From Cymbomonas tetramitiformis (taxonomy: Eukaryota > Chlorophyta > Pyramimonadophyceae > Pyramimonadales > Pyramimonadaceae): DNA of 64,000 nt. The notes beneath the pieces were generated by a model that did no database searches, was not told where the DNA came from, and was given only the letters and a program-made list of their open reading frames with translations. Shown here in pieces: positions 3,176 through 52,046 of this stretch (positions within the stretch are counted from its first letter, which is position 1; each line of letters begins with the position of its first letter). A program made the position numbers and the translations under genes. The stretch lies in assembly GCA_001247695.2 (NCBI GenBank), contig LGRX02029197.1, positions 1-64,000 on the forward strand, in the 5' to 3' direction.

Positions 3176-5192
3176 ATGTCGGTGTTCATTCCTGTAGATA
3201 CGCTTAACTGCGCTTTCGCGAGGATTACTTTGCAGAGTCCAGCGGGCGCGTCGGAAGCAGGCGCGTCGAGCGCAAACTTACCGGATGATCAACTGCAGAA
3301 TTATCCTCAAGAAGTCATAAATGCTCCAGAAGACGGATATCCAGATAAAGAGAGATCTGAAGGCAACAAATATGACGATATGAAAGTGGGTAAAACCGTC
3401 TTGGATATGAATGCATTCAAGGCTAAGGGCATGGGCATCATCATCAAACCGCCCGAAGATGCAGGAGCAATTGATACTGACAATGTTTGGGTCGAGTGGC
3501 CAACACTCGATCACCCAGTATCTAGATCAAAGAAATACCTATGGATCTTAGGTAAGCTGGCGTCATCTTATGTCAATTCCATTTTGTAAATTCTTTGGCG
3601 TATTGTACGCCGTTGAAGTAAATATTTGTGTTCGCAGGTGATGATGATATTCAAAAATTAAAAAAAGCAAACGAGGGTGCGGGTGCGTCGCCAAGCCATT
3701 TTGTTTCCTATTTTCTTCATCTTTGTAAACTTTTTAGCATGACATATGCCATTGACAAAAATATTTGTGTGCAGATCCTGAGGTGCTTGAGGAAAGCCAT
3801 AATGCAAATCCTACTGCGCCAGGCAAAAAAACCCCAAATAGTTCATACAGAAAAAGAATCAGTAATCTAGGGGATTCAGAACCGGATGAATCAAAAGTTA
3901 TAAAGAAATGTGTCATAAACCATAAAAAATTTACGGTTATGCATAGCGAATTCAAAGGCTTCTATGTGGTATATACGGGAGATTTGATAGTAAAAAAAGG
4001 CACGATACTGGGTTTATTTATTGGAAGTCCGATTGTGGAAACGGAGGACGCCAACATTTATCCTGAAAAAGAATGGCAACACGGTGCGCGGTATTACGAG
4101 CAAAGCAGACGAGTACCTGAATATCCGGCAACCTCGAAAGATAAAATTTATTTAAATCCAATACCCAAAGGTAGAAATAGCGTCGACGAAAATGATCCGG
4201 TCTTTATGTTTGCTCTAATGAACGAGCCCGCGTTCGTTCCTGTTGTGGGAATACACGAAAATATAATATTCTCACATAAGTCGGACGCCCTTAAGGCATA
4301 CATAATTGTGACTCACCCAGAACTGAACCCGAAAAGATGCACGTACGGCACTCTTAAACGAAGACGTGAAAGTATTCTTGATTCTTACGAGCTGGAGTTA
4401 GAATTCACCGTATACGTTCACCATCACAATAAATTGTTTTTTGAAGAATATCCCGACTCCGTATGGGATAAGGAAAAACATATACAAAAGATCCGTTGTG
4501 AAAAAGAAATGGACGCATACCCTAATCTACCTAAATATGGTAAATATTTAATGCCAGATTTACTGAGAGAACTTGACGAATTAAAATTTGAGAGTATACA
4601 AGGTAATAAGGATTATAAATCAATAGATAAACCCCTTTACTGTACACACATAACATACGTGATTAAAAAATCTACATGCCCAGTATACTATATGCTCCAA
4701 ATATTATATACTCTATATTGTAAAAGTCTACCCAATGAATCTCGAGTAATCTACGTTCAAAAAAACAATTATATCACAGTTGCATTCGATGAACCTGAAC
4801 TTGACAAAAATGGAAGTTATACAGCCTCGAACATGGTAACGTTACAAAACATTTATGACAGGGCGTCAAGAAATAAAGGTCGTGAGGAAGACACGAGAAC
4901 TACGGCAAACGTAGAATTTGTAAAAATGTCAGACCTAAAACAAAGCAATTTGTTGTGCATACCTTGCCTATATGTACGCGCTATCAAAGATATAAGTCAG
5001 AACGATGAGCTCCTCGTATGTTATAGTCGAAAGAACATGATATCTGATACCGGATTGAAACGAAGATGCAACTTATTGCAAGAAATAACCTATGAAACTC
5101 AACAACGAAAAAAAATTAAATTTGAAACGATTTTAGATTTACATTGGTATTATTTCATATCGCATTTAAAGGATAAATGGATAAATGGATAA
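3176..5192 (+). CDS. SET-like domain protein with two spliceosomal introns, 3' end replaced by transposon end
   Basis: Exons 3176-3551, 3638-3676 and 3775-5192 join in frame (610 residues). Both introns are GT-AG, 86 and 98 nt long, and end in near-identical tails (AATATTTGTGT..GCAG). After a low-complexity N terminus, the protein has a SET-like N-terminal block (VVYTGD..., ILGLFIGS), the element FMFALMNEP, a long insertion, and a SET-C-like block (IKDISQNDELLVCYS). Its last residues (DKWING) and stop codon come from the terminal repeat of the mobile element at 5171. The missing C-terminal module (helical, VVDFHAEK...) appears to resume on the far side of the element at 17899. SET proteins methylate lysines. 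The canonical NHxCxPN motif is not visible, so activity is uncertain. Confidence 0.7.
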
Positions 5193-5795
5193 ATGGATAA
5201 ATGGATAATTCACCAAGTGAAAATACAAAACGGTCCTCAAAATATTTTCAAGTGAAAGTACAAGGACGCGTCCCTCTTCCGGAATATCACCGCACCCCCC
5301 TCCCCGACAAGTGAAATTACACAACGGGCCCCGGAAATACTGAAAATACACTTTGGTCTCCTTTTGTGAAAAAATGCACCGACACCTCCCCGATAAAGTC
5401 AAAATGCAAATCAGGTGAAAAACAACAAGTGAAAATACAATGACGCGTCCTTCGTCCGGAATATCACCGCACCCCCCTCCCCGACAAGTGAAATTACACA
5501 ACGGGCCCCGGAAATACTGAAAATACACTTTGGTCTCCTTTTGTGAAAAAATGCACCGACACCTCCCCGATAAAGTCAAAATGCAAATCAGGTGAAAAAC
5601 AACAAGTGAAAATACAATGACGCGTCCTTCGTCTGGAATATCACCGCACCCCCCTCCCCGCCAAGTGAAATTACACAACGGGCCCCGGAAATACTGAAAA
5701 TACACTTTGGTCTCCTTTTGTGAAAAAATGCACCGACACCTCCCCGAAAAAGTCAAAATGCAAATCAGGTGAAAAATACCAAGTGAAAATAAAAG
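5171..5795 (+). repeat. left terminal inverted repeat with three 176-bp subunits
   Basis: The outer end is (GGATAAAT)x4. Subunits begin at about 5250, 5427 and 5603 (AAGTGAAA...), and a partial fourth begins at 5781. The subunits carry the conserved blocks GACGCGTCC, TATCACCGCACCCCCCTCC and CACTTTGGTCTCCTTTTGTG. The sequence matches 17230-17861 in inverse orientation. Confidence 0.9.
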
Positions 5796-5862
5796 GAAGT
5801 TTCTTTTCCCAGAATAATTATGTCTCACAGAAAATCTAACAATGACAACCCTTGTCACCATT

Positions 5863-6153
5863 GACAGCTAATGAGAAAGTGATATTGAACTGATAATATG
5901 TAGTCCGTGCTGAATATTTTTGAAACATGAAATTATTGTCATCGATGACGATATTTTTAGGTGCTAAACACAAAAAATATTTTATACTTTATTTATACAG
6001 TAGAATAAGTTTGTCATCGATGACGATATTTTTAGGTTGCATGAAAACATCATGACAGCTAATGAGAACGTGATATTGAACTGATTATAAGAAGTCCGTG
6101 CTGAATATTTTTGAAACATAAAATTATTGTCTTCGATGACGATATTTTTAGGT
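5863..6153 (+). repeat. 100-bp direct duplication, 191 bp apart
   Basis: 5863-5962 and 6054-6153 are near-identical. Each includes GACAGCTAATGAGAA, a CGTGCTGAATATTTTTGAAACAT-like stretch and the GTCATCGATGAC palindrome (mutated to GTCTTCGATGAC in the second copy). Confidence 0.8.
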
Positions 6154-6356
6154 TGCATGAAAACATCAAGTTACAACAACAAGATTACCATCGGTGACGT
6201 TTTTCTCACTATTTGTAAAATAGGTCTGTCAACAAACAAATACCGCAGATAAACACCAGGAATACATATTGCGACTGTCACAAAATAATATAAAGGTGTT
6301 GCTATTTAGGGTTACGAAGCTCTTGCTGCGTAACTTATTTCCAGACGCGTTCTAAT

Positions 6357-6794
6357 CTAGTCAATGGTACAAGCGTCCAAATCAAACATTCTAACTAAGC
6401 TGCATATTCTGAAGCTGCGCCAACAAAACGGACACCTTCCGTCATCCTCCCGCAGCAAGTCACTGCTCAGCTCCATTAACGCTTCGTACGTCAAAATACC
6501 GTAGCCGCGAGTGTCATTCCACAGTTGCAACTGCCACCGTGGATATCCCTCGCTTTCGTCGTCGTACCAGCCGATCTCGTACCAGTATACCAAGTGCCTC
6601 ACACCTGTTCTTTCGGTTGTTGTGCGGCCGTGGATGTACAGCGGCCACACTTGATACCAGTTCCAGGTGTTAAACTGTATTCTGGTTTGGTAAAACTCAA
6701 TATAGTCCGCTTCCGCTTGTAAACGCGCACGTCTCCAAAGCACATTAATTACCTCCGGGTACACCTCAATTACCTCTGGCTGTTCGTCAGTCAT
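6357..6794 (-). CDS. 145-residue protein within the mobile element, unknown
   Basis: The frame starts at ATG 6794 and is rich in W, Y and acidic residues. It ends with a possible zinc pair (CPFCW...C). Upstream on the minus strand lie two CATAAATAGAA boxes inside a short tandem duplication (about 6855-6905), which could be its promoter. It sits between the left inverted repeat and the transposase and is not homologous to anything I recognise. It could be an accessory protein of the element. Confidence 0.45.
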   Translation of the reverse strand: MTDEQPEVIEVYPEVINVLWRRARLQAEADYIEFYQTRIQFNTWNWYQVWPLYIHGRTTTERTGVRHLVYWYEIGWYDDESEGYPRWQLQLWNDTRGYGILTYEALMELSSDLLREDDGRCPFCWRSFRICSLVRMFDLDACTID

Positions 6795-7228
6795 TTCTCA
6801 GCGTAATTGCCACAAAGGTTATTTCGCAAAGACCCAAACCGAGTTCGCCTTTTCTATTTATGAGCAAAAGCAAACAGTATTCTATTTATGAACAAAAGCT
6901 GACAGTATTCAAACGGCGCGCGCGCGGTGTCGAGTATCGGCGACGAGCACTGGCGGCGGGAAAAGTTCCAGGTTGCTGAAATTTATTTTGTCACACTAAC
7001 TATTATTCAAGGAGCAAATTATTTTCTTGCACAAGTTAAAATTATACTAGGACTTCCCCCGTCATCGATGACAACAAACCATGCATGTCCATGTGTCAAC
7101 AACATGTCGTCATCGATGACGATATTCTCAGGCTGTATTGAACAGAAAGTATATATATTTATGTAAAATCCTCCCGCGTATTATTCTCCGAAGTCAACAT
7201 TATTACAGATTTAAGTCCAGTTTTTTTT

Positions 7229-10200
7229 TTAAACAAAGCTCAAACCTCCACTCTTCAAGCGAATCTCTTGAGTTACGTCCACGTTGTCTTGTGCTACTAT
7301 ATTTCGATCGCTCGGTGGCCTTTGAACCTTGAACCAAGGAGGTAAAAGGCAATATACACACTTCTTCACAGGGCAAAACTGTAACTTTTGCGTTACCCAT
7401 GTTGAAGTGTAGTTAAGTTTCTTTTTTCCCATGACAACAACACGGGGACGGCGAGGAGGAAGTATCGGCTGAAGGGAGTTTGTGTCTTTCGCTGTCACAC
7501 AGCCACTCCTTGAGTATGAAGCCGCACATGTCGCGTTCTGGGAACTCCCGTTCTGGAGTGCGTACTCTCCTTCTTGGAGCTTTTCCTTACGCTTTGCCAC
7601 CGTCACATCCTCTAATGCAGTCAAAATCAGTTCCACCTCGTTGTCGGTAAAACCACTTTGGTAGTAGTACGCATGTCCGGGGAGAAAGCCTGCCTTCATT
7701 AAAACGTAGCAGATGTGATTGCACCAATGAACACCATATTCCCGTGTACGAGTGGACATAATGTCTTGGAAAAACTTACAGTTACAAGAAACTTGCTTGC
7801 CCCTTGAGTGACTAAAAGTCACAACACTCTCGGCCATCCTATAGCCCCCAACCTTCAAGGTGCGTGCGTGAACTCCGAAGTTTTCGTCGTTCACCCCGAG
7901 AACTGGAGTGGGCGCGGGAACACTCAGAACCGAAAGCTTTGCGGGCTCCTTGAATAACTTGGTGAGTGTGCCGACAAGCTTCTTGCTGGCTTTCGAGATG
8001 TATTTCACCGTGTTCAGGGTCAGCACGGAGTAACGCAAGCCGTCTTTGTCAGGCGAGTGTGTTTGCACAGCCGATAGAAAGTCGAATAAGAGGTCGGAAT
8101 CAATTTTTGTGGCGGTTTTCCAATAACCATCCAGCGAGTCATCACTCGGGTCAGGATCGACCTTGAAGGTAAAGACTTCCGTCCCATTCTTAATTGTACT
8201 TTTACACTTCACAATCTTCGGCGTGGGTTCCTGCATGTAACACGTCAAGCTTTCGTCATCGATGACGATTATGCTGAAGAAAATAGTTTGACATTTTTAT
8301 CTTTAAAACAACGAAATATTGTCATCGATGACAATAAGTTGAAGTATTAAAAGTTTACAAGGTGCAGATGTAATGTCAACATGTATCCGATTAAAATGTC
8401 GACAAAAGACGTGTCTAATTAGGATTAGTGTAAGTTGTTCATACCGGTGTGTTCGTCGTTTGCTGGGCAGCTGGTTGACGAGGGAAAACGCGGGTTTTGT
8501 CTGCACGGTGGTTCCTTCCCTCTTGAACCGCTGGTGGGGAGCGAACGTATATCTCACGGACTTCTTCCATGATGTCATCAGCCGTCGTCCTTGCCCTTTT
8601 CTCGGCTGCTAGGTTTGCCCTGCGCTCTTGATAAAGTTCTTGGACTCGGGACTCACGTCGCACGTACCCGCATTCCCCCATGTGTTTCAGGTGGCTGCTC
8701 TGGTCGACAAAGCTGCAAAGCTCCATGCGCACGGACTCAGACACAGTGAGATGTTTTCCGAGGTTCCTATTATCCTGGTTTCCCAGAGCTTCTGCAAGGT
8801 TTGCTGTTGGGTCACGAAAGATATGCAGGAGTCTTTCTCCCTCACGGGAGTAAAACTTGAACAATCCATTCAGACTGCTCTGCACGTCCTTACGGGGCTG
8901 ATCTTCAATGAAGTCCATCAAACGAGCTCGAGCATCTAAAAGCTGTCCCGGTGCCAACTCCTTCCACCAATCGTGCCAGAGCTTGTCGAAGGTTTTTGCG
9001 TCGAACTCGTTGTCAATCTTCTTGCAATGAAGACTGACGTCTTTTCCAACGTGAAGGTCGCAGTCGATCTCCAAGGAGTTTCCCTGTGCGTCACGCACAC
9101 GAAAACCTTTGCGGCTTTCAATGTCCGCAATCAAAAAGTTGTAGTTCATGCGTAAACCATTCCAGGGGCCTCCTGCAAGTGCACTAAACTGACATTAATA
9201 TCTGAAACTTAAACTTTTCTTTGTCATCGATGACGAGGTGCAGCCTAGTTTTAATTAAGTGTTGCTGTAAAATAGAAAATAGTTTAGATATCGTCATCGA
9301 TGACAATAAAATGACAACACAAAAATACACCGAGTACTTTATCATAATTACCTGCTGCGTCACGAACAAAACCCCCTGGTCGAAAATGTATTTGACCTTT
9401 GGACTCTGGCCAGTTCTTTGCATCCAGGTATGCCGCAAACTCTTCTGGGTGTTCCTGAGCGTAGATAGCGACGGCGTAATCGACCGCAGCCCACATCGCC
9501 CTCTCGTCCATGCCGCGTTCCCCGGCGGGTAAGGGGTTCACTACTAGTTTTATCAAGCCTAGTGTTGGAATCACGCAACATATCTTCTCCACCACCTTGT
9601 CCCTCATTGTTTTGTGCATGCCATCAGAATAAGCCAGCTGACCTTTGAAAGGTGGCTTCCCGAGGACTCTGTCCATTAATAGCATCACCTTGGCCGGCGA
9701 CCACGGAATGTCCAAGGGACAGATGAAGTACTGCAAAGGCGGCCTGTGATAATTACATTTGTTAGTTTCAAATAACAAACATGGTACAACATCAATATTG
9801 ATATTGTTATGTTTTCAATGCGTACCTTTCGAACAACAACGCGCGGAGTCCAAGTTCTTGCAAGCGCTGACGCAACTGTCGTATCTCGACATCGGGGTCC
9901 TTTGAGGGGACATACGTCGAGCTCTTGCTTCCTCGAATAACGTACTCCAAAGCCCGAACATCTTGCACCGCCTCTGACACGTTCAATACGTCTTGTAGGG
10001 TGGTTGACTCGTGTCCACTCAGCAGTTTGTTCATCACATTGGCGGTTGCAGCCATCTTCAGGTTTTCCAATCGAGCTGCGCCCATCTCGGGGATTGCCTT
10101 CAAGACTGCCTCAGTTTCGGTTTCCCCAAGCTCTGCTGGCTTGGTTTTTTTGACAAGGTTTGTGCAAGAGTGTTTCCCGATGTGTTTAAACATCAACAAA

Positions 10201-11282
10201 TAGCCTGATCCGGGCTTAAGTTCACCACGGTAAAGCGTGGCGGTAGCGGCACAAGGTTCCATGGATGTAGTTTGTTTGCACTTTGAACATGTCGGTGCCA
10301 CTTGTACTTGTTTACCTTGTTGCGCCACCTATTGAATTACAGGCTATATTTATTCAATGAAAAAGTTTTGCAAGCAAGTATTAATCTTCGTCATCGATGC
10401 CAAAAAAGTTAAAACATTATAAAACAGTTACTCTCGAAAAATAAACTTGCGAAACAATTGTCATCGATGACGATATTTGAAAGTAATATAATTATACAAA
10501 GTAAAAAAACGGTTTCATACCTTTTCAATGAAGTTTTTGCCATGTATTTGAAGGAACGGACAAGTCTCATTCTTGCATACTGCCTCTCCAAGGCATTTCA
10601 CAGCTCGAATGTTGACCTTGGCACCCAACTGCTTCCAGTTATCGGTTATTGCCTTGTCCGACCCGTTATTCGCATGTGACCAAGTACGCGGTGTTTGAAA
10701 GAATGGGAGTTTAACCAAAGAAACCCCACGTTTGTCCTTGGATGGCGGTTGTTTGACGTGGAAACCGAAGGTCATATTCCCGTCGACGTTAGAAGGCACT
10801 TGGGTGGTGAAGATTGTATCTTTGGGGAACGCGTTTGCAAACTGAAAGTCCTGCTTTGACAAATTCGCAACAGGAGTATCAAGCTCAGGTTCAAAGGTAT
10901 CTGCAGGTTCCGAGTCGCATAAGTTGACAAAAGTGGAAGCAGCTTCGCCAGTGATCTCAGGTTCGTCCTCAGACTCTGAAGCCGCGGAGGTTGCGGCAGG
11001 AGTTTTCGGTGAAGCATCTTCGGGCTCGTCTTCGGTATCAATCAAACAACCTATAACTGAGTAGCCCCATTCCGGGTCCACGCGGTACACCTCCTTGTCG
11101 CAGACATATTTCCTACTAGCCAGTTTTGCAACAGCCAATCCATCGTCGGGGTTAAGTCCGAAGGCGTCACAAATGTCCTTGTGCAAAACTTGGCATCGCT
11201 TCCCACGTACACGCCATGGAATAGGCCGACAAAGAAGAACACCTTGAGGGGTTTCGAAGAAGAAATCCACAAAGTTGCCCAT
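7229..11282 (-). CDS. transposase candidate with FLYWCH/WRKY-GCM1-like and SWIM zinc fingers (5 exons)
   Basis: Exons on the minus strand are 11282-10521, 10328-9826, 9743-9352, 9172-8445 and 8230-7229. All junctions are GT-AG and all phases fit, giving 1128 residues. An acidic N-terminal region is followed at about 230-310 by a Cys/His cluster (CPFLQIHG, CSKC, KHIGKHSC) resembling the FLYWCH/WRKY-GCM1 fingers of Mutator-like transposases. The middle (about 420-800) would be the catalytic part, but I cannot assign a DDE triad with confidence. At about 944-975 is a SWIM finger (CNC...WCNH, the CxC...CxH pattern). N-terminal FLYWCH/GCM plus C-terminal SWIM is the architecture of MULE-type transposases, and KDZ-type elements are an alternative. 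Four introns hold five copies of the GTCATCGATGAC palindrome. The gene is divergent from the methyltransferase. Confidence 0.62.
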
Positions 11283-11852
11283 TGTGCAAAAGGAATAGTT
11301 CAAATAGCTGTAATATTTCACACGCACTCGAATGTCATCGATGACGAAAAAGGTAACATGTAAAGATTCAGTCAGAGCTGAGAAAGAGGGAGAGGGCGTA
11401 GTGTCATCGATGACATGTTATCGACAAAACAATAATTTGTCAAGTATTTACCTGCTATCAAGCAAATTATATTGTCATCTCGTAGTTGCAACCTTCTTGG
11501 AGTTCTATATTTGTTTGTTAAGAATTGTGCAGTTCGAAAAATAAGTTGTTGTTAAGTAGTCCGCGCCAGAAACTTGAAAATTGAAATTGGGAATATAATA
11601 ATATTATATATGAAATTGATAATTAATTGTTTATTCAGCCCCCCTAACCCCCAACTCACTTCGGGCTGCCCCACCCCCCTAACCCCCAAAAAAAAAAAAA
11701 AGCGCGCGACGCGCGCGGCTGGAAGTCACGAGTGGTTGACGAATTTAGACAATAAGAAGCGGAGAGTGGCGGCCCCTTTGTCAGTTCAAAATTTTTGTCA
11801 CTGCCACCCCACCTTACTCCACAGTCAACGCTGCACATTCAGTAATAATTAA
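11283..11852. promoter_or_regulatory. divergent intergenic region between transposase and methyltransferase genes
   Basis: It holds two palindromes (11334, 11403), an AT-rich middle, a C-rich tract with repeated CCCCCTAACCCCC (11640-11690), an A run and GCGCGCGACGCGCGCGG. It probably contains both promoters of the element. No TATAAATA box is seen. Confidence 0.45.
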
Positions 11853-14800
11853 ATGGCATACTCGGCCGGAAAAAGAAACACTAAAGTGCCAATAGAATGG
11901 AACGTAGTCAGCAAGCCAAGAAGTGCGCGGGGAAAGTCTGCACCCCCCAGTCCTGAACAAGATTCAGGGGAGGTCGTTGAGTCTCTTAACATTGGGGAGA
12001 TACACAAGGCAAGATATATTGAAACTTTGGAACTGAACTTGAGTGAGTGCTCTTTTGATGACAATCCAAGAGGTCACAAGCATTGTGCCGTGGAGGCCAT
12101 GAAGCGCATCGAGCTCGTGGGATTCGACCCCATGTGCGACATGATGTGGTACAAGACGCCGGACAGTAAGAGGTGAGCTATTTCTTTCTTTTACGTCGTG
12201 TGTTCTTTTTACTTTCCTGACCCATTAGCTTTAATTATAGGCACAAGTACAAGGCAATTGACGGACACGGAAGAAACGAAGCTTTCCGAAAGGCGTATAA
12301 AGAAGGTGGAGTCGTTGCAGGCAAGAAAGTCGAACCCGGCGACAAGTGCTGGCTGAAGGCCAGGGTGCAGGTAAGCTTTAATTTTTTCCAATCTTTTATT
12401 TGATAACATTTCGGGTTAAAAAAGTTGTCCTGAGTGTCCCTCTGAGGTTTTTTTTTTTTTTTTTTGGCATCGATGACAAGCTTCCTGTATTTTGTCATTA
12501 AGTTCGCTTTTGGCTCGTGCCTTAAACCTTTTCTCAAACGTCATCGATGACGAAGCAAGTCTCTGCGTGGATAATTAGTCGAAATATTTTTGGAAACTTA
12601 GTATTCATTGTCATCGATGACGGCCTGGGTACCTGTAGTGTTTCTTCACTGGACGTATATACGTTTAGAAATATTTTTGTCATCGATGACAATATTTTTC
12701 TGAGCCTGAATGAATGTGCCTGGTTTTTTCTGCGAATATTTTGCCACTGAGACACGTTTAGAAATATTTTTGTCATCGATGACAATATTTTTCTGAGCCT
12801 GAATGAGTGCGCCAGGTTTTTTCTGAGAACATTACGCCACTTAGACACGTTTAGAAATATTTTTGTCATCGATGACAATATTTTTCTGAGCCTGAGTGCC
12901 CTTGCCAGGTGTTTTCTGAGGACATCACGCCACTGGAGATCAACTTCCTTGCGGGCTCGCGTTTCGTGACGAACGAGAAGGGGGTGAAGGCTTATAATTT
13001 TTTTTCTAAGTTCATGTATTTTGATCGGCTTTTGAAAGCCTGGCCAAAGGAAACGAAGCTTTCTGGACCTGCAATGGTTGCTCGTTACGGCACGCTCGAC
13101 GAAGACTACAACCAAACCTTTTTCAAGAAGCTCATCTCCGTTCACAGACTTTTAAGTGAGGACCAGCGACTGCTTGATTTGGTTGAGAAGAACTGCGAGG
13201 AGCTTGGAAGTCACAGTCCTTTCGGGTTTGCTAGTTTGTATTCAAACAAGGAGCTTGGGGATTTGTCGCTGGAAAACAAGGTATAACTGGCGCAAGAAAA
13301 ATATTCCTTACCTTATATTTGTTTCCGTTTCAAGTATTGTTGACATCGATGACAACTGCGTTCATGTATTCCCGGTTTCGGCATGCAGAACAGGTAGAAC
13401 TTAAAGCATGGCATGTTGTGGTAACTTGTCAGGTGAAAGCCTTTCAGGCTGTGTGCAAGAACGTGACCTACTTCAAGCACGGAGAAGATTCTGAGAAAGG
13501 ACACTGGCTGCAGACACAAAGCATGCAGGATCACACGCCGGTCATTAAGTCAGCGCGAGGCTTTACTGACTTCTGCACAACCCTTAAAATGAGGGAAAAG
13601 ATATCGGCAAGACTTGAAGCGCTCGTGAAAGAAACTGGTGTTACTTTCAACCGAGAAAAAGCAGACGAGTTCATGGCTGGAATCCTTAAAGGATGGTAAG
13701 GTCATTTTACCTTCTTCTTTTCCTTTTGACAGTGTGCTTCCTTTGATCAATGTGCTTGAGTGCTCATTGCAAGCTGTTATTATTTATAGCTAACGAAAAA
13801 GGTGTGTCTCGCAGCCAAGACAGCTTTTTATTTCCGGTTGACAAAAGCCCATTGCCTTCCAGCCCAGTCGCTTGCCGACTGAAAGAGGACGAAATAAAAA
13901 AGGCACTTGCTTTCGTGGAGGGGAAGTTCAAAACCGCTGTTTTCTACAAGGACGACGAAGTGGAGGACATGGACTTGGAGGCCGTCAAAGTTCATGTTAC
14001 ACCTGCGAAGGAGGTTGAAAAGCATGCAAAAGATGCAGTCTCTGGAGAGAACGTGGCTGAGTCTCAACATGAGGAGCCCTCAGCAGCTAACTCAGACGCA
14101 CAATTGAAAGCCTGGTTGGAAGGCGACAACGACGCTGAAGGGGGGCAACAACCTGCCAACGAGGACACTTCGCAGCCGGCACACGTAAACTTTGACATGA
14201 GCACCTTGCATAAGCCAGAGATGATTGCTGGTACGTGGAGCTTTCAGAAAAACACCTGGTCACATGAAACTTGTTTGTTTTCCGTCATCGATGACGAAGT
14301 TTTTCGTCATCGATGACGAAGTTTAGGCAGTACGTTACGATGCTTTTTTAAGTTTTTTCACGTGCACACATGACTTACATTTACTAATCAAGACTGAACA
14401 AACTTTGATCAAACTTTGTTCTTCTCGCAGAAGGCTTTATTCTCATCGCAGATGTAAAGCATGCAGAGGATGAGCACGAAGAAGCAAAGAAGACCGTGAA
14501 GAAGTTAAATAAGGTAATGCAGAAATACGTGATCGACAACGTCCAAGCGATGAACTTAGACGACGAGACCGGAGTTGCAGTAAGGGCAGAGTTGAAGAGG
14601 AAAAAGGACGAGATCGATGTACTGACCACGGATCGTAAGAGGAAGAAGGAGCGGAGGTTATCTCTTGCGGCGGAGTTGGAATCAGTCCAGCAGAAGCTAG
14701 AGATGCCATCGCCAGAGAAAGAATCCGTACTACCTGAGTTGCCACCTATACTGGCGCCCATTCCAGAAGTTTCAGAATCACGGCACGCAACACCGGTGAG

Positions 14801-16736
14801 TTGTTGAACATGTAATGTAAAGTTTTAGCAGTTGCTTTTGTTAACATTGATGAAGACTTTCTTAAAAAGAATATTTTTGTTTCAGGCCCCCAAACAATCA
14901 CCCGAGGTTCCAAACCAGCCGGGTTTCTTTTACGGTAGCCCGTGGGACCCAGTGAAATGTTACGAAGCACTGAGCGGTGATGACAAAAACCTCAACTTCA
15001 AGACGGAAAAGAAGCTGACCAAGCGAGATGGTTCTACGTGGGACGCCCGAAAGCCTGGGGTGAAGGAGATTGAGTTCCTGGAGTTCCTGGTTGCTAACCC
15101 GTTGGACGGAAAGCCTATTGGCTACAGTCGTAGTGACATCTATGTATCTTGTCAAGAAAAGATGTCCAAGGCCTTACACCTTATCTATTACAAAGCGACC
15201 GTGGTCGCCATCGGTGCTGAGCAGACCAAGTGCTGGGTTTTTCAGAGTGAGATTCTCACTTACGCGGGAGTACCCGCGGTGACATTGGCGTGTTGTGACG
15301 CGGTGAAAGCAACGAAGCAGCTGCTGTCTGTGTTCTTTGAGGGGGTTGGTGTGGCCGCGGTCATCACGGACGTTCCTTGGGGAAGCAGTGAAAAAGCCGG
15401 GTACCCAACTGACATCGACTGGAAGGTGGCAACGAAGGCAATCTTTGGTTCAGTGGCCGATAACAATGGTAGCATGGACAAGTACGAGAAAGCTGTGGAC
15501 CTAGGCGGGCCGGACGGAGACACCGTGTTCACGGTGATGGGCACACTTGAAGTGCTTCAAGAAATAGAAGAAGAATCGAAGAACTGCAATCTCAGTGGTT
15601 TTGTGAACCTTCCCGGTATGATGTCTTCTGTATTATTTCGGTAGTATAGCATATCTGAAAATTTCGTCATCGATGACAATATGAGACTCATATTTACTTA
15701 GTTATTTCGTGTTTGAAATATTTTGTTCAGTATTTTTCGTCATCGATGACGAAGTTGTTGTCACTGTCTGCAGGTTGCATTACATATTCCAAGCTGAGGC
15801 TTGCTGAGGTTAGGAGCAATACTCCGTGCTCCTCTGGAATCTGGTACACATGCCTGGCAAGAACGCCGTCTAAACTCGTGTGTGATTGGAAAGCTTTCTT
15901 TACACCTCAAGTTTCAGATCGGCACAAATACATTCTCACCCGTAAGTACAAGTACGACGTCCTGTCGACTTCGTTTACCGGGAACATCATTACTTGCCCG
16001 TCGAACGAGGAGAAGGCAACGTTGCTGCGCAACTTGTTAAACACGGTGAAGGAAAGCGTTCGGGAGGAGCGTGGAGAAGATGTGGCGCCGGGCGACGATG
16101 ACGAGAAGGTGCGGGAGGATTTCATGGTAGCTGAGGACCTGCTTGACGATGAGTTCACACGTATGAACAAGGCTTTCAAGCAGACGGTGTCATCAACCAC
16201 GGTGAAACATAACTGCTCACTGACTGGCTGCCAAGCGTTTAAGCAAGAAAAGTGTGAGAGGTCTGAAAAGGCTTTGGTTTACGGACAGAAAGACCCAAAT
16301 ATGATGAATATGCTTGTGCAGCGGTACACGTACTTGCCAGGGCAGCTCGTGATGGATCCGTTCATGGGAACCGGTATGTTCTGCTTTCCTAATCGACTTG
16401 CATGCCGGCTTGTATTGGGATGATGAAAGGAGTTTGCATGTGGAACACGTTCCCGTTTGCAATGTCGGCTAGACGTATTGTGTTTTCCAAAGTTCAGTCA
16501 TTCTTATTGTTCGGCATGTGCGCCTGCTGGAAACTTTGTCATCGATGACGGTTGTCATCGATGACGGTTGTTAAATATCCTGAGTGTAGTCGAAGTTTGT
16601 GTATACAGGGAGCACAGGAATTGGAGCCTTAGACGCCAGACGTGCGTTCTTTGGCATGGAGATCCAACAAGAGACCTTTTGTCAGGCGATGTTGATGATA
16701 TCTTCAAGTCTGGCGGGAATGTCACTTGAGGGATAA
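11853..16736 (+). CDS. DNA methyltransferase candidate, beta-class amino-MTase (9 exons)
   Basis: Exons are 11853-12172, 12241-12370, 12909-13280, 13433-13695, 13815-14230, 14431-14795, 14886-15615, 15774-16373 and 16609-16736. All have GT-AG junctions and consistent phases, giving 1107 residues. A catalytic motif IV-like TDVPWG lies near residue 784. The AdoMet-binding motif I-like DPFMGTGSTGIGALDARRAFFG, spanning the last exon junction, lies near 1060-1080. The order motif IV before motif I is that of beta-class N6-adenine or N4-cytosine methyltransferases. Residues about 480-600 are a charged coiled coil. The first 450 residues are unrecognised. Having P-W rather than P-P-Y/W at motif IV is unusual. 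An mRNA m6A or 5mC role is less likely from the motifs. Possible targets include the element's own palindromes (inference). Confidence 0.7.
12661..12939 (+). repeat. 93-bp tandem repeat spanning intron 2 / exon 3 acceptor
   Basis: Copies start at 12661, 12754 and 12847. Each has ACGTTTAGAAATATTTTT, the GTCATCGATGAC palindrome, CTGAGCCTGA and a CCAGGT.TTTTCTGAG acceptor-like block. The last copy supplies the real acceptor (AG at 12907-12908) and the first codons of exon 3. The upstream copies are therefore decoy duplicates of an exon start. Confidence 0.82.
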
Positions 16737-17229
16737 GTGTTAGACTCGACCTGTTATTTGTTCAGTTAGGTGAAGAGAAAATTGTACTTTCACAAATAAA
16801 TAGAAGGGAACCTGAAGTTTAACTTTTTTAGGTATGTGCTGTCATCGATGACGGGGAAAGTAACTTCGGCTAAAAGTGTTTTCTGACAAATAAATAGAAG
16901 TGAATCTGAAGTATAACGTCTTTGGTATTTCCTGTCATCGATGACGGGGGAAGTAATCTTGGTCGCCGTGTTATTCCTATAACAAAAACGGTTGCACTGT
17001 CATCGATGACGGGGGAGGTCCCTGTTATATAATCTTGTGATGGTTGATTCGTGTCCGTTATTTCTGGGCTGTGGTTGTGTTGTCATCGATGTCGAATGGA
17101 GTCCTAGTTTTATTATTTTGCCAGGCAAGATGGGAACTTGTATTTTCACTTATATTTATGCAGGTTTGTAAACATGCACGGTTGCAGTATTCAAAAATAC
17201 CAACATTTTTGAAGAGAGACGCGTCGTAG
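16737..17229. other. 3' region of methyltransferase gene, palindromes only
   Basis: No gene is seen. It contains three perfect palindromes (16841, 16934, 16999), a mutated one (17082) and a loose tandem duplication of an AATAAATAGAAG...GTCATCGATGACGGGG unit about 93 bp apart. Confidence 0.5.
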
Positions 17230-17861
17230 TATTATCACTTGTAGTTTTTCACCTGAATTGCATTTTGACTTCAGCGGGGACGATACGTCTCGTTGAAATT
17301 TTTCAGAAAAGGAGACCAAAGTGTATTTTCAGTATTTTTGGGGCCCGTTGTGTAAGTTCACTTGTCGGGGAGGGGGGTGCGGGGATATTCCGGAAGAAGG
17401 ACGCGTCATTGTATTTTCACTTGTTGTTTTTCACCAGAATAGCATTTTGACTTTAGCGGGGACGATACGTCTCGGTGCAATTTTTCAGAAAAGGAGACCA
17501 AAGTGTATGTTCAGTATTTTTGGGGCCCGTTGTGTAAGTTCACTTGTCGGGGCGGGGGGTGCGGTGATATTCCGGAGGAAGGGCACGTCCTTGTATTTTC
17601 ACTTGTTGTTTTTCACCAGAATAGCATTTTGAGTTTTTCGGGGAGGTGACGGTGCATTTTTAAAGAAAAGGAGACCAAAGTATATTTTCACTATTTCCGG
17701 GGCCCGTTGTGTAATTTCACTCGTCGGGGAGGGGGGGTGCGGGGATATTCCGGAAGAGGGACGCGTCGTTGTATTTTCACGTGAAAAAAATTTGAGGACC
17801 GTTTTGAGTTTTCACTTGGTGAATTACCCATTTATCCATTTATCCATTTATCCATTTATCC
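17230..17861 (-). repeat. right terminal inverted repeat with three 176-bp-type subunits
   Basis: It is the inverted counterpart of 5171-5795 and ends in (ATTTATCC)x4 at 17861. It has diverged from the left copy by scattered substitutions (for example GTATTTTCAGTATTTTTGGGGCCC against the left CCGGAAATACTG), so the element is not very young. Confidence 0.9.
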
Positions 17862-17898
17862 TTTTTTTGCGCGACGGTATTATTTATATTTAAAAGAC

Positions 17899-19809
17899 AT
17901 GGTTGGAACTGCTGAAAAGAGCGAGCTATTGAATATGGTTGTTGATTTTCATGCCGAAAAATGCGAAAAAATAGACAAACTCAAAATAATAAATTCGTTG
18001 CGGGGCGAAGATTCTACTATTACACATACAGATACAGAAAAAGCCTTTTTTATACGTTGCGTAACCTCGTTGATCCAAGAACGACTCCAGATGCAATGGA
18101 AACTCACAAATCATTTGTACGATGTCTTATACCCGGCAGCAATTACCGCTACAGCGGCATCGAGTGCAAGCGAGCCGAGTTTCAAGGACGACGCGCCACA
18201 AGGCGGTAGATCTGAGGCTAATTTATCGACATTAGTAAGGAGATGCAAAATAGGAAGTTTTGATTATGAAGTTCGCCACAGCAGCATAAAAGGTAATTAC
18301 GTGGTGTACGTCGGAGAGAACCCCATTTCTGCAGCAACGATTTTGGGTTTATATACCGGAAGTCCGCTTCTTCAATATGACAAACCATCCAGTGCATATA
18401 ATTACGAAAATACACCAGCGCATATGATACCATATGAAACTATCCCGGAAATATCTCATGACTGGCACGAATTTCACGGTACACGTTATTACGGAGATGC
18501 TATACGACTACCCAAAAGTTTGCCGATCGTGTCGACACGGCCAAATGAGGAAATATTCCATAACCCGGTAGCAACCGGTGAAAACTCTGTAAACGCAAGT
18601 GATCCGGTGTTTATGTTTGCACTTATTAACGAACCTTTGTATTATAGTAACATAACGCAAGATCAGAACATGATTTTTTTGAAAAAACCAGATGCCAGTG
18701 AAGCATACGTACTATTTAAAGATTTTGACTCCACGCAATGCACATATGGAACCATAACACGAACGACAGATGGAACAGAGTCGACAATTACCATACACGT
18801 AAGTCACTACAATCAAAAGTTTTTTGATGAAAACAAAATTGAAGGGGATACCGATGAACAAACTTTTAATGTGCAGTTGATAGATATTGATCAAATGAAA
18901 CCAGATGAAAAAGAAGAGAAGTTATTGCAAGATGTGATTGAAATAAATAGTGAAATTAGCGGAGAAAAAAAGTATGTAACACACATAATTTACCATTTTT
19001 TAAATTCTTCATTCCCAATGACTCATATGATGCGGCTATTGTATTACGTATTTCATAATCAAGTTCAAGTACGAAATAAAAGAACGGAACTTTCTGGTCG
19101 CGAAAATACGGTTTCAATTGTATTTTCTAAACCCGAATTACGAAAAAATATATACGTCGGGTTAAACCCGGAAACGTGGTTGGATATTAAAACTTGGGTC
19201 AGTAAAAATGCAGAAACCCAAAAAAACGTCGAACCGAATGTGGCATTTACTGCACCGCAGGATCTGCCAGAAAGCGATTTATCGTGCATACCTTTTTACT
19301 ATGTGCATACCATAAAAGAAATAAATAAAGACGACGAACTCTACGTAAATTACGTTCACAGTTGGGACTTGGGACTGAAACATAGTAAAGAAGTACGAAT
19401 GGTTTATAAACCGATCAGCATGCGATCGAATTGGTATAATACTTATATAAAATTGATGATTATAGACCCAAATAAAGATACGGACATGTATACGCTGATT
19501 CGAGAGGTTATTGATTTTCATGGTGATAAAATTGGAAATGGGTACAAAGAATATTTTCGAAGAAAATTTTTAACACCGGAACCGGAATTGAACCTAAAAG
19601 AGAATTTACACCATGTAATTGATACAAATGAAGGGGATAATCAAATGAAGGAGACAAGACAAGCGTTTTTAATACGTATGGTGACATCGTTGATCGAAGC
19701 TAGGCTCAATATGGATTGGAAGCACAAAGAAGATGTGTACAATGCGTTTTACCCAGCCATACTACGAGCGGATATTGCCACAGGCGATACCCCTATGTCA
19801 TACGCCTAA
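17899..19809 (+). CDS. SET-like domain protein, probable downstream half of the split gene
   Basis: The 636-residue protein opens with a helical module (LLNMVVDFHAEK..., DTEKAFFIRCVTSLIQERL, WKLTNHLYDVLYPA). In its paralogues this module lies at the C-terminal side of a SET-like domain. A full SET-like unit follows: VVYVGE, ILGLYTGSPL, GTRYYGD, FMFALINEPL, a roughly 200-residue insertion, then YVHTIKEINKDDELYVNY. A second copy of the helical module (REVIDFHGDK..., MVTSLIEARL) ends it. The frame is open upstream of the ATG into the right end of the mobile element and reads YYLYLKD, echoing YYFISHLKD at the end of the left half. I infer that it and 3176-5170 formed one gene. No TATAAATA box precedes it, which fits a gene cut from its promoter. 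Confidence 0.68.
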   Translation: MVGTAEKSELLNMVVDFHAEKCEKIDKLKIINSLRGEDSTITHTDTEKAFFIRCVTSLIQERLQMQWKLTNHLYDVLYPAAITATAASSASEPSFKDDAPQGGRSEANLSTLVRRCKIGSFDYEVRHSSIKGNYVVYVGENPISAATILGLYTGSPLLQYDKPSSAYNYENTPAHMIPYETIPEISHDWHEFHGTRYYGDAIRLPKSLPIVSTRPNEEIFHNPVATGENSVNASDPVFMFALINEPLYYSNITQDQNMIFLKKPDASEAYVLFKDFDSTQCTYGTITRTTDGTESTITIHVSHYNQKFFDENKIEGDTDEQTFNVQLIDIDQMKPDEKEEKLLQDVIEINSEISGEKKYVTHIIYHFLNSSFPMTHMMRLLYYVFHNQVQVRNKRTELSGRENTVSIVFSKPELRKNIYVGLNPETWLDIKTWVSKNAETQKNVEPNVAFTAPQDLPESDLSCIPFYYVHTIKEINKDDELYVNYVHSWDLGLKHSKEVRMVYKPISMRSNWYNTYIKLMIIDPNKDTDMYTLIREVIDFHGDKIGNGYKEYFRRKFLTPEPELNLKENLHHVIDTNEGDNQMKETRQAFLIRMVTSLIEARLNMDWKHKEDVYNAFYPAILRADIATGDTPMSYA

Positions 19810-19914
19810 GTAAAGCGAGGTGAGCGATGAGCAAGCTCGTGTGGATGCGGTTGCCCATTTAGACCCCGAACTCGACAATACTATTTATGGTCTGGAAAGA
19901 AACGTGTGCCCATG

Positions 19915-19922
19915 TATAAATA
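19915..19922 (+). promoter_or_regulatory. TATAAATA box
   Basis: It lies 35 bp upstream of the ATG at 19957 and argues against the earlier in-frame ATG at 19912, which overlaps the box. Confidence 0.6.
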
Positions 19923-19956
19923 CGGTCGCGAGGTTTCCCATTTGATAGGACTCGTC

Positions 19957-22226
19957 ATGTCGTTGCCCGCGCCCGTTTTGACAGCACAGACGGAAGTTTG
20001 TGAGAGCACAGAGAAAGGTTATCATTTAAAGTACACGGGAGACGACGACTTACCCGCAAATAGCCTTTTGGGGCTTTACGCTGGCGGACTCATCGTCGAA
20101 GCGTACAAGCACGATTATGATAAATCCGAGAATTACGAAGACAATGAAGACTTGGACGCGATCGAAACATTTCCTTATAAAGACCCAGTTTGGCACGAAC
20201 TATACGGCGCCCGTTACTATAGCAGCGCCAAACGTTATCCCGATTGCGAAGTAGGCCAAAAAAATGAGAAACAAATTTGCGTAAACCCGATATCAAAAGA
20301 TGAAATAAAGGTTGAGCATACCGATGATTTTTTTAAATTCGCGCTCATGAATGAGCCAGTGATGTTATCAAAAACATTTTCCGATCGTATCATATTCACA
20401 CAAAATCACAGTGCAATGGAAGCATACGTGGTTCTCACCCCGAAAAATTTCCAATATCCAAAATGCACTTACGGAGTTCTAAAAAGAAACTCCGTAAGTA
20501 CCGGGTTATATTTGCACTTCGAATTTTTTTTTCACATTATAATAAGCATTATTTTGAAAATAATGGATCAGAATTAAGAAAAGTAGTAATTGTGGTGGAC
20601 GATGTCCATAAAGAAGCGAATAGGCACGAGGTACAGATGACACGAAAAAAACTTGCCACAGAAAAAACGAAAGAGGAGTCGGAAATTACTTTAGAAGAAA
20701 TCAATAAAAGTTGGAATGATAAACAAAACTTAAAAGTATTTGAGAACAAGAAAAAAGCAATTCAAAAAATACAAAATCTTGCAGGTTATCTTAATGACAA
20801 AGACTCAAGTGATAAATACGAAGGACGTCTTTTGGTGTGTTTACACAACAGTTCATTTCCCATAAATTTAATGCTGGAATTTCTGTATATATTTTTTTAT
20901 GAAAAAAAAATGAATTATCAAAAATTTGCAAAGATAGATATAACTTTTAAATTACCGGAATTAACCCAGAAAGCAGATAATACCTACGAATATAAACTTA
21001 AAGATAAAATGTCTTATTTAGATTTGAAGGATTTATTAATAAAACAACCTCCTCAAAAACCAAACGTTGCGTTTGTTGATGTGATACCCTTTGGTGATTG
21101 TGCATTGTCGTACATACCGTTTGTACACGTGCAAACTATAGACGTAATTAAAAAAGGCGAAGAACTTTTGACGTGCTACGATTACAATAACAACATAAAC
21201 GAGGTGGGTTTAATTCGAAACTGCAATTCAGGAGTTTCTGATTTAGTAAAATTCGAGATTGACATCAAAATGTACGAAAAATTCTTTGATAAAAAGGAAG
21301 ACGAATTTATTAGGAATATAGTAGAGTATCATATTGAGAAAATCGAACGTCTCTACGCATGCTTACCTCAAGAGATTATGGACTTTCGCGATTCCAAACG
21401 GGACATAAATTCTATTACCAACGAGGACACTGACACCTTAAAGGCTTTCTTTTTGCGGGTTGCGGTCTCTTTGGTCGAGGCGCATCTCGGCCAGAATTGG
21501 GAACACACCGATGAAGTGTATTTAAAACTGTATCCAATCGTGCAAACAACCACAGAGTCCGCATCGCGTTCTCACAATTCGCTTGTGGGCGGCACAAGTT
21601 CGGAGCGTGGAGTTGAAAACGCTGCAGGTTCAACTACACGAGAAATTGGGAATATTACGTATAAATTAGAAACTGTAGATCGCGAAACAGTCCTAAAAAT
21701 TTCACGAGCTGATAAAGTGGGTAATTTGATAGTTAAAGAGAGTACGATACCTAACGCTGGGTTGGGCTTGTTTTGGGATGGTGCTACTCTTTTAGACAAG
21801 AAAAAGAAAGATGAAAGATATATTTTAGGCACATATACCGGTGAAATTCATGAAACGCAACCAGAAAACGATAACTACGTAGTTCAACAAGATCATCCAA
21901 GAAAATTTATATCTGGTCAAAAAGCGGCTGAAGGTATAAAAAAAGCCATTAAAGATAAAAACTTAAAGTATTTGAGCACAGACACCGGCGATTGTTTTAT
22001 GATGGCAAATACGCTTGAAAAATCATCCTCAAATGAATATAACATGCGTATAAATAATAATTTACAATTTAAAGCTACCAGAGAAATTGAAAAAGGAGAT
22101 GAGTTATTTTGGTACTATAACTTAAAAGATTTGGAATCAATAAAATCAGACGACGAAGTTTCTGATATCGAAGGAGTTGAAGATGATAAAAATGACACTT
22201 CAGATGACGATTATGTTCCTCCTTAA
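19957..22226 (+). CDS. two-SET-domain protein, broken by a frameshift at a T9 run
   Basis: The first frame (from ATG 19957) carries a SET-like N block (LLGLYAGGLI, GARYYSS, FKFALMNEP). At the T run 20524-20532 the similarity to the paralogues passes to the next frame, which continues to 22226. That part holds the insertion, the SET-C-like block (VQTIDVIKKGEELLTCY), the helical module (RNIVEYHIEKIE, AFFLRVAVSLVEAHL) and then a more canonical SET domain at the C terminus. The canonical domain shows GLGLFW, ILGTYTGEI, DCFMMAN, ATREIEKGDELFWYY and an acidic tail. One extra T would restore a single frame. Lysine methylation of viral or host chromatin is the family role, and a histone H3 gene is present at 32.4 kb. 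Confidence 0.7.
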
Positions 22227-32378: not shown

Positions 32379-32918
32379 ATGACGCGCATCAAGAAGACCT
32401 CGCAGCAACCTAGCGGGAATTCCGCGGTGAACGCCGAACGCGCCACAAAACTGTTGCAGGACACAAAGGCGGCGAACGCGAACGCGGAGGGTAAAATCAA
32501 AAAACCCCACCGCTGGAAGTCGGGCACGGTCGCTATGCGGCAGATGCGCGGAGAGATGCGTGGGGTTTCGAAGCACGCCCTCGCGTACGCACCATTCCGA
32601 CGGCTGGTGACCGAGATTCTACACGACAGGGGTAACTACGGAATTCGCATCAGCAAGCAGGCGATAGAGGCGTTGCGCGAAGAGGCAGAGAACTTTGTGC
32701 GGGAATGCTTCTTCTCCGGCAACGTGTTTGCGCTTAATCGCGGCGTGACCACCGTGGACCCGCTCGATTTCCGTCTGGGCACTAACTGGCTCAACGGTAA
32801 TATGCAGGTTGATCTGCATCGGCAGGACGGTATCATGGCGGTGCTGCCGATGCATTCGCTCGCCAAACGCCACCCCTCGATCAAGCCCAGCAACGCGAGT
32901 TTGCCAGAAGGCAAATAG
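32379..32918 (+). CDS. histone H3 homologue
   Basis: The 179-residue protein has a basic N-terminal tail. Its core is plainly H3-like: KKPHRWKSGTVAMRQMR (H3 has KKPHR.RPGTVALREIR), APFRRLVTEI (PFQRLVREI), ISKQAIEALREEAE and the closing VTTVDPLDFRLG (VTIMPKDIQLA). It is longer than cellular H3 (about 135), with about 35 extra residues at the C terminus. The tail lacks an obvious ARTKQTARKS start, so the classical modified lysines are mostly missing. Viral histones package viral DNA in nucleosome-like particles. No H2A, H2B or H4 is visible in the window. The upstream TTG in the same frame is not a likely start. Confidence 0.93.
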   Translation: MTRIKKTSQQPSGNSAVNAERATKLLQDTKAANANAEGKIKKPHRWKSGTVAMRQMRGEMRGVSKHALAYAPFRRLVTEILHDRGNYGIRISKQAIEALREEAENFVRECFFSGNVFALNRGVTTVDPLDFRLGTNWLNGNMQVDLHRQDGIMAVLPMHSLAKRHPSIKPSNASLPEGK

Positions 32919-51503: not shown

Positions 51504-52046
51504 TTATGATGCACGCCGCATTCGAGGATATGTTGTGATCATACCTTGCATACGAGGTGGCAAAAGTCTTTTCATCGCCTGAAAGTGACGGTGAAAAAAA
51601 CGTCTCTCGCACTCGCAATTTGTACGCGGAGTCGCTCTATCTATGTAGTGCATAAATTCAAATGCGCTCCGGAGAAACTGGTTTTCCGAGTCTTTGCGCG
51701 TGTAGCACTTATCCCCATAACAAGATTTACCAAGTCGTACATTTACCGCATCGTGAAATTCGCTCAGCAACTTGACGCAATCGGATCTGGTGGCGATTGT
51801 CAAATGTTTCAAGTTTGCAAAATATATACTACAATGAAATCGGCAAGTGTAGCAGGGAAGCACATACGCCAACGTGCTTAAGTATTCCTCCAATACATCC
51901 TGAAGCTCTTCGTTTATGCATATGGGAAGGTTCTGCGCAATAAAGTGCAGGACCGACCAACCGTGAGAACCCCACAGGTTTGAAGATATGTTATTATGCC
52001 ACTTGCTGGGGATATTCTCTTGAACATCTTGTAACTTTACCGACAT
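51504..52046 (-). CDS. Erv1/Alr-type FAD thiol oxidoreductase
   Basis: The 180-residue protein starts 37 bp after a TATAAATA box (52083-52090, minus strand). Family features are the NLWGSHGWSVLH start, the active-site pair C65-x-x-C68 in PCYTCRFHC, and EFHDAVNVRLGK (the FAD-binding H-x3-N pattern). A second Cys pair follows (CYGDKC). Viral Erv1 homologues drive disulfide formation in virion proteins assembled in the cytosol. This fits the Cys-rich surface proteins in the window. The C-terminal 50 residues are basic and unassigned. Confidence 0.92.
   Translation of the reverse strand: MSVKLQDVQENIPSKWHNNISSNLWGSHGWSVLHFIAQNLPICINEELQDVLEEYLSTLAYVLPCYTCRFHCSIYFANLKHLTIATRSDCVKLLSEFHDAVNVRLGKSCYGDKCYTRKDSENQFLRSAFEFMHYIDRATPRTNCECERRFFHRHFQAMKRLLPPRMQGMITTYPRMRRAS

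Follow-up and report, generated by a model that had tools for sequence, protein, structure and literature searches.

A family-specific palindrome arrayed through the non-coding DNA of a Cymbomonas transposon and its possible role in element self-recognition

Why would a mobile element carry the same short palindrome about thirty times, and only between and within its genes rather than in their exons? The question is raised by a 64,000-nucleotide stretch of the marine green alga Cymbomonas tetramitiformis (contig LGRX02029197.1, positions 1 to 64,000; the window), in which a DNA transposon of 12,720 bp (5156-17875) holds the 12-mer GTCATCGATGAC as 25 exact copies and five copies with one mismatch, all between positions 5938 and 17093. 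The transposon has two divergent genes, one for a protein with a DNA methyltransferase domain and one for a partner protein. With slightly more belief than doubt, we are inclined to read this word, and a different one in a related transposon family, as family-specific sites of a dimeric DNA-binding protein that each element would encode and with which its sites would co-evolve; the likeliest purpose may be a self-recognition that counters silencing.

A recount in the window returned the 25 perfect copies and five one-base variants given in a preliminary description of the locus, and likewise no exact or one-mismatch copy outside the transposon. That description had ended the array at 17010, which takes in nearly all sites but stops just short of the last one-mismatch copy (17082-17093). 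Sorted by zero, one, two and three mismatches, copies number 25, 5, 0 and 7 in the transposon and 0, 0, 1 and 19 in the remaining window, the sole two-mismatch copy lying at 40509. Allowing up to two mismatches, 31 matches stand against 2.53 expected in the whole window (standard deviation 1.64; maximum 6 in 100 shuffles). When the 4,250 nucleotides of internal non-coding DNA were simulated 300 times with a Markov model, the word never occurred and no 12-bp palindrome reached more than two copies. Chance as the origin of the array is ruled out by the shuffles, the simulations and the genome-wide count given below.

The sites keep to one compartment. All 30 fall in the 4,250 nucleotides of internal non-coding DNA, none in 7,149 nucleotides of coding sequence and none in the 1,321 nucleotides of the terminal inverted repeats (TIRs), where about nine would be expected at the internal density. 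Their absence from exons, claimed at the outset, holds under explicit models with 15 exons, including a one-exon open reading frame (ORF). The label 'non-coding' is right for all 30 sites, but the TIRs hold none, so 'internal non-coding' fits better; the first estimates of about 6 kb non-coding and 6.7 kb exonic DNA become 5.57 kb (4,250 plus 1,321 nucleotides) and 7.15 kb. Nineteen sites lie in eight of the 12 introns and 11 in spacers. Sixteen segments make up the internal non-coding DNA, and the 12 that carry sites are all those of at least 152 nucleotides; the four without are the shortest introns (68, 82, 90 and 119 nucleotides), an outcome that uniform placement could also give.

From left to right, the left internal spacer holds sites at 5938, 6013 and 6129 (the last with one mismatch; 5938-6140), and a second spacer those at 7061 and 7109 (7061-7120). 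Pairs then occupy introns 8231-8444 (8255 and 8321; 8255-8332), 9173-9351 (9223 and 9293; 9223-9304) and 10329-10520 (10390, with one mismatch, and 10460; 10390-10471), as well as the spacer separating the two divergent genes (11334 and 11403; 11334-11414), in which CCCCCTAACCCCCAA also occurs twice, at 11640-11689. Intron 12371-12908 holds sites at 12466 (one mismatch), 12540, 12610, 12679, 12772 and 12865 (12466-12876), the last three carried by a 93-bp tandem triplicate; by eye, the repeated unit (12661-12939) takes in the 3' splice site and the start of exon 3 as well, which places decoy acceptors in the intron. A single one-mismatch site at 13342 (13342-13353) lies in intron 13281-13432, followed by pairs at 14284 and 14306 (14284-14317) in intron 14231-14430, at 15666 and 15739 (15666-15750) in intron 15616-15773, and at 16538 and 16554 (16538-16565) in intron 16374-16608. 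The right internal spacer carries 16841, 16934, 16999 and, with one mismatch, 17082 (16841-17093).

Neighbouring sites often keep a set distance. Ten of the 29 adjacent distances fall between 65 and 75 bp, a range picked post hoc from data already viewed, against 1.05 at random, and none of 5,000 randomisations equalled that count; with four duplicated sites dropped, nine of the 25 remaining distances lie in the range, where 0.94 would be expected, and 20,000 randomisations never reached that number. Copying of larger units was rejected as the source of the sites, the flanks of most site pairs being unrelated: 11 of 435 pairs exceed the 99% null, about four being expected, and five of the 11 belong to the triplicate and to duplications at the left end. 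Only these two also show accumulation by tandem repetition, and the recurrent 70-bp step has unrelated flanks. Within the triplicate the core has 0 changes in 36 positions and the flanks 39 in 243. The pair 16778/16872, which an indel throws out of alignment, was left out of these comparisons.

Taken in full, the site is a palindrome of 16 bp, TYGTCATCGATGACRA. The 12-mer is preceded by a pyrimidine (T 20, C 10) and followed by a purine (G 19, A 11) at all 30 sites, and two positions out from it stand T at 22 and A at 23 of them. The central CG is preserved in 30 of 30 sites, and four of the five mismatches affect one symmetric position. Within a site the two outer bases vary independently of each other (TG 13, TA 7, CG 6, CA 4; n = 30), and between neighbouring sites they show no covariation (17 T-G, 8, 7 and 4 C-A; n = 36). 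Such independence fits the half-sites of a dimer, unlike RNA or cruciform pairing.

Across the genome (851.7 Mb in 25,745 contigs, the reversed word serving as control), GTCATCGATGAC occurs 5,473 times against 106, an excess of about 50-fold. An equal density in unrelated DNA of the same organism had been named beforehand as grounds for abandoning a function, and the word survives that comparison. Among the first 50 of the 5,473 places, 44 are in transposon-related DNA: 25 on C13, in a full second copy, and 14 on C8 and five on C47, both partial. The other six lie on C19, so that confinement to the mobile element is true of the window and fails genome-wide. The C19 array (L053 34540-34988) sets its six GTCATCGATGAC copies at steps of 85, 69, 85, 69 and 129 bp.

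The C13 copy measures 12,677 bp. All 30 sites align, 28 of them identical; of the two that differ, one is perfect where the window copy is mismatched and one has a new mismatch, and C13 bears one additional one-mismatch site. Its 30 aligned sites stand at the same non-coding places, in agreement with what the preliminary description had required of other copies. Between the two copies the core differs at 2 of 360 positions and the non-coding flanks at 143 of 3,855 (p 0.0004); exons differ at 184 of 7,140 positions and TIRs at 94 of 1,316. A subfamily defined by the protein P0001, on C2199, has 16 sites in its aligned part, 15 identical and one lost, and its core differs from the window at 5 of 192 positions against 136 of 1,639 in the flanks (p 0.004). 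A function for the word is well supported, on comparative grounds, by the genome-wide excess and by the sites kept in the second copy. The transposon family is large, to judge from at least 121 exon-wise matches to the methyltransferase gene, found with just 54 of 2,574 first-look candidates scored.

A relative of the partner protein, P0003, belongs to a second family, whose copies are numerous and nearly identical, as seen from the 40 scored out of 2,066 first-look candidates. In 30 loci cut around P0003, GTCATCGATGAC was not found, and two copies read further, on C22996 and C6, carry GTTCATCGATGAAC in its place. On C22996 the P0003 gene and, on the opposite strand, a methyltransferase-like gene are separated by a stretch with seven GTTCATCGATGAAC sites, one of them a variant, at steps of 22, 70, 69, 136, 69 and 70 bp, and two further sites lie near the right end; the methyltransferase-like gene of this family shows 37 and 40% identity in its best parts. 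The C6 element measures about 12.3 kb and its TIRs about 1,050 bp; it has a target duplication of 10 bp, GTTGGCTCGG (10 of 10 identical), five central GTTCATCGATGAAC sites (steps 70, 69, 136 and 69; one variant) and two more in each TIR. No site in either copy falls within the matched parts of the genes. Genome-wide, GTTCATCGATGAAC has 2,983 copies (control 0), and the core TCATCGATGA, common to both words, has 11,141 against 237 for its control, about 2,700 of them belonging to neither word. The two families are alike in their divergent two-gene layout, their 10-bp duplications and their step of about 70 bp, and their partner proteins are 38% identical.

In the window copy, the methyltransferase gene (11853-16736, forward strand; exons 11853-12172, 12241-12370, 12909-13280, 13433-13695, 13815-14230, 14431-14795, 14886-15615, 15774-16373 and 16609-16736) has nine exons and encodes 1,107 residues with a C-terminal N4/N6 DNA methyltransferase domain (PF01555, E 1.3e-8, 35.5 bits against a cut-off of 26.7); its PDB matches, DpnA and CcrM, are both weak. 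P0001, also of Cymbomonas, is 81% identical to this protein (733 of 906 columns) and reads through six of the eight modelled splice junctions, the first two lying outside P0001. The partner gene (7229-11282, reverse strand) has five exons (10521-11282, 9826-10328, 9352-9743, 8445-9172 and 7229-8230) and encodes 1,128 residues; its product is a candidate transposase by position only. All 12 introns of these models are GT-AG, and each of the two genes has a single open frame. Relatives of the partner protein are P0002 (78% identity over 49%), P0003 (38% over 97%) and P0004 (40% over 67%), and the protein itself has no Pfam domain above cut-off. Residues 64-114 of P0003 match the SAD/SRA methyl-DNA-reading domain below threshold (12.7 bits, cut-off 30.7). 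A small ORF (6357-6794, reverse strand; 145 residues) is without a Pfam or PHROG match.

On our favoured reading, a symmetric dimer encoded by the transposon would recognise the word, and each family would have its own version of the site around the core TCATCGATGA, namely YGTCATCGATGACR here and GTTCATCGATGAAC in the related family. The same gene pair, partner proteins of only 38% identity, and differing words on one core at a common step of about 70 bp are what would be expected if protein and sites changed together. With about 30 sites, often about 70 bp apart, in every internal non-coding segment of at least 152 nucleotides, the protein could load along the whole element. The binder may be the methyltransferase protein or its partner, these being the two genes common to both families. 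Its likeliest purpose would be to let the element recognise itself and so stay open despite silencing by the host, in the manner of VANC in VANDAL elements. The sequences show the sites with their form, layout and spacing, their conservation between copies, a separate word for each family and the common gene pair. Protein binding, the identity of the binder and an anti-silencing outcome are what we infer, and anti-silencing as the purpose is our best guess. This reading gained some weight from the genome-wide counts, the other copies and the word of the related family.

In VANDAL transposons, the element's own VANC protein binds family-specific non-coding words and removes silencing (PMC5735166). 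The word of VANC21 is YAGTATTAY, which it binds in the introns, the intergenic DNA and the terminal non-coding stretches of the element that encodes it; VANC6 recognises a different word in its own element, AGTTGTCC or AGTTGTAC (PMC5735166). Small-RNA silencing attacks the same VANDAL parts (PMC10398659). The two systems have in common a short word in many copies in the introns and other non-coding parts of one family, absent from coding sequence, with different words in related families and the word also present in an unrelated repeat. The Cymbomonas words differ in that they are palindromic, 14-16 bp long and built on one core, and in that they recur about every 70 bp between unrelated flanks and not as tandem repeats; their element has a methyltransferase gene and site-free TIRs. 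Membership of the VANC family itself was rejected, since neither VANC domain, DUF1985 or DUF287, turned up in Pfam scans of the element's three proteins at E up to 1 and of three relatives at E up to 10.

That absence is one of several points that weigh against self-recognition by an element protein. Pfam and PHROG searches found no recognised DNA-binding domain in the transposon proteins, and structure predictions of P0003 (from a three-row alignment) and P0001 were too poor, with a mean predicted local distance difference test score (pLDDT) of 28.7 and 36.5. Motif IV of the methyltransferase, usually (D/N/S)PP(Y/F/W), has the odd form DVPW in both the window copy and P0001. The distance range was, as said, chosen after the fact, and core conservation in the internal duplications is mixed: unlike the triplicate, the left-end duplications have 1 of 12 core positions changed in each of two comparisons, against 5 of 89 and 10 of 51 in the flanks. 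The six C19 places lie in a repeat that blastn does not match to the transposon. On C6, five of nine sites are in the spacer of the two genes and four in the TIRs, which suits gene control or transposition equally. Finally, the accessible part of a survey linking N6-methyladenine (6mA) to open chromatin reports that 6mA is not enriched on transposable elements (PMC12695648).

The main rivals are operator sites and methylation targets. We think it unlikely, though worth serious weight, that the words are operators or enhancers through which a protein of the transposon, or else one of the host, controls only the element's genes or its transposition, with no role in silencing. The C6 distribution, with five sites between divergent genes and four in TIRs, favours such control, as do the two window sites between the divergent genes and palindrome pairs with a central CG, of independent origin, found in bacteria at 66 bp (L011) and 78 bp (L009). 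In L011 (6675-6752) the two copies 66 bp apart lie beside what we take to be a putative transporter gene and a LacI-type regulator, presumably in the shape of an operator. The other 28 window sites, 19 of them in eight of the 12 introns, lie outside the divergent spacer and the TIRs have none, which speaks against operators. The same empty TIRs (0 of 30 sites) disfavour, for this element, end binding by the transposase, whose binding site was among the candidates of the preliminary description, yet the related family does have four TIR sites.

A methylation target, also among the candidates first put forward, appears improbable: the palindrome would then be the substrate of the encoded methyltransferase, and a modified A or C, not a bound protein, would mark the element. 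Consistent with this, a PF01555 methyltransferase is encoded here, the related family has a methyltransferase-like gene, and both words share TCATCGATGA with its two ApT steps. However, we know of no methyltransferase site as long as 14-16 bp, the DVPW of motif IV departs from the usual form, and steps of 65-75 bp would be left unexplained. 6mA at ApT is described as a mark of permissive chromatin, in prasinophytes among others, which favours such a target, but the enzymes that this survey connects with 6mA in eukaryotes are MT-A70 proteins and not PF01555 (PMC12695648). Other transposons, in algal viruses, also carry methyltransferases (PMC3627910).

We regard as very improbable a tiny parasitic repeat that inserts itself into neutral DNA. 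The mostly unrelated site flanks (the 11 of 435 pairs above the null, about four expected, with five known duplications) and the fact that the site-free introns are the four shortest would suit it. So would an excess of two-base repeats around the 14-mer (8 against 2.0, mostly AT), but this excess follows from the extended palindrome, because AT is its own complement. Longer flanking repeats are limited to the triplicate, at its three sites (5 and 7 bp), and to 16554 (4 bp), and a search for target duplications around copies, as for introners or insertion repeats, gave nothing beyond two-base matches (mostly AT/AA), the triplicate and one 4-bp case. The parasitic palindrome, one of the candidates first put forward, is further disfavoured by copies diverged by 4-8% that share the same site positions and by a word that differs between transposon families. 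Barely credible, finally, is an RNA role in which neighbouring sites would pair as a stem and thereby shorten long introns or mark the transcript: two copies about 70 nucleotides apart can always pair, but the outer bases of neighbours lack covariation (4 C-A and 17 T-G of 36), 11 of the 30 sites lie in spacers and the related-family sites fall outside matched gene parts, all of which also disfavours the splicing mark suggested earlier.

Among known elements, the transposon resembles MULE/MuDR in its long TIRs (about 660 bp, and about 1,050 bp in the related family), in the 10-bp duplications of both families and in being a large two-gene element; MULE/MuDR target duplications measure about 8-11 bp. 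MULE transposase and SWIM domains gave no Pfam match, although very diverged members could escape Pfam, and a SWIM-like cysteine pattern, seen by eye only, is not kept in P0003. Plasmid palindromes of the ParB/KorB type also occur as many identical copies across the non-coding DNA of one mobile element; these systems are bacterial, and a likeness to a ParB motif in the methyltransferase protein was seen by eye only, with no Pfam, PHROG or PDB match. Mariner-2_PGv and Mariner-1_OLpv are likewise DNA transposons with a DNA methyltransferase in virus-related DNA, but they are Tc/mariner elements with other methyltransferase types, and the portion of the source at hand does not mention dispersed palindromes (PMC3627910).

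IMG/VR held no relatives of the methyltransferase protein, the partner alignment, the TIR pattern or one window gene. Motif-pair patterns searched there matched a single phage pair, within an ORF that reads like a helicase, and in a further search nothing. Motif pairs in GTDB gave 10 stretches, with no link to the transposon seen: six come from one Thermoanaerobaculia genome (L002, L003, L004, L005, L007 and L008) and have the same 12-mer in 41- and 21-bp arrays, one is a 21-bp array of Flavobacteriales, L010 shares the flanks of the phage stretch L001, and L009 and L011 are separate pairs. Four phage methyltransferase regions, one of them unannotated, added nothing. Among the papers that searches of the open-access literature listed, none described a comparable system in algae or MULE-like elements, and a search for the 12-mer listed one paper, which was unrelated.

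The transposon is flanked by a target-site duplication, GGTATTATTT (5146-5155 and 17876-17885, forward strand; 10 of 10 identical), which is the longest direct repeat between the tested flanks and whose perfection suggests a recent insertion. The left TIR (5156-5815, forward strand) has an 8-bp TAAATGGA tip array and about three 177-bp subrepeats, the right TIR (17215-17875, reverse strand) about three 182-bp subrepeats and an 8-bp tip array, and neither contains the palindrome. Their inner bounds were placed by eye on the alignment, giving arms of about 660 bp each and 1,321 nucleotides together; the arms differ by about one position in ten (268-bp arms, 91% complementary). The transposon seems to have landed within one gene, because the phases of the flanking ORFs match across it (2 + 1 bases, stop-free over the 13 bases before the right-hand ATG). 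SET similarity of the interrupted gene is weak (17.9 bits, below cut-off). Long ORFs at 3939-5192, 17899-22226 and 42001-43776 read alike, one with this weak SET similarity and one interrupted in phase by the transposon.

Outside the transposon, 20 window ORFs were scanned and four of them passed a Pfam cut-off (ERCC4, Evr1_Alr, histone and trypsin), which suggests that the surrounding region is virus-derived. The window gene at 48935-50614 is 100% identical to CYMTET_4202 of Cymbomonas tetramitiformis. The histone-fold, trypsin-like, ERCC4 and Erv1/Alr genes, at 32379-32918, 38817-40748, 47383-48150 and 51504-52046, lie in seemingly virus-derived DNA. A protein of 27-residue repeats (26669-28522; 81-bp period, e.g. 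'CLRYAHENGCPWD') is of a type that resembles giant-virus repeat proteins. About 770 bp at 617-1385, also outside the transposon, are dense in short TCAGGAAT and ATCAAGAA words and their complements, with periods of 11 to 132 bp. Rfam and tRNA scans of the window gave no match. Many endogenous viruses have been reported in the Cymbomonas genome, and Nanopore reads of the strain exist (17.4 Gb; PMC10675990).

What the palindromes may mean reaches beyond this locus. Detailed sequence-specific self-recognition of transposons has so far come from one plant family of elements, VANDAL, and Cymbomonas offers a candidate second case, in an early-branching green alga and with unrelated proteins. In its fullest form, which we put forward tentatively and with more doubt than belief, this would be a second, independently evolved eukaryotic system of transposon self-recognition, in which a dimeric element protein, perhaps the bacterial-type methyltransferase itself, co-evolves with a palindrome array and each family releases only its own copies from silencing. 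The methyltransferase gene points to a possible mark, and two families whose words differ and whose partner proteins are 38% identical provide a ready test of what determines DNA specificity. If the reading is true, self-recognition systems would arise repeatedly among transposons, with word and protein changing together.

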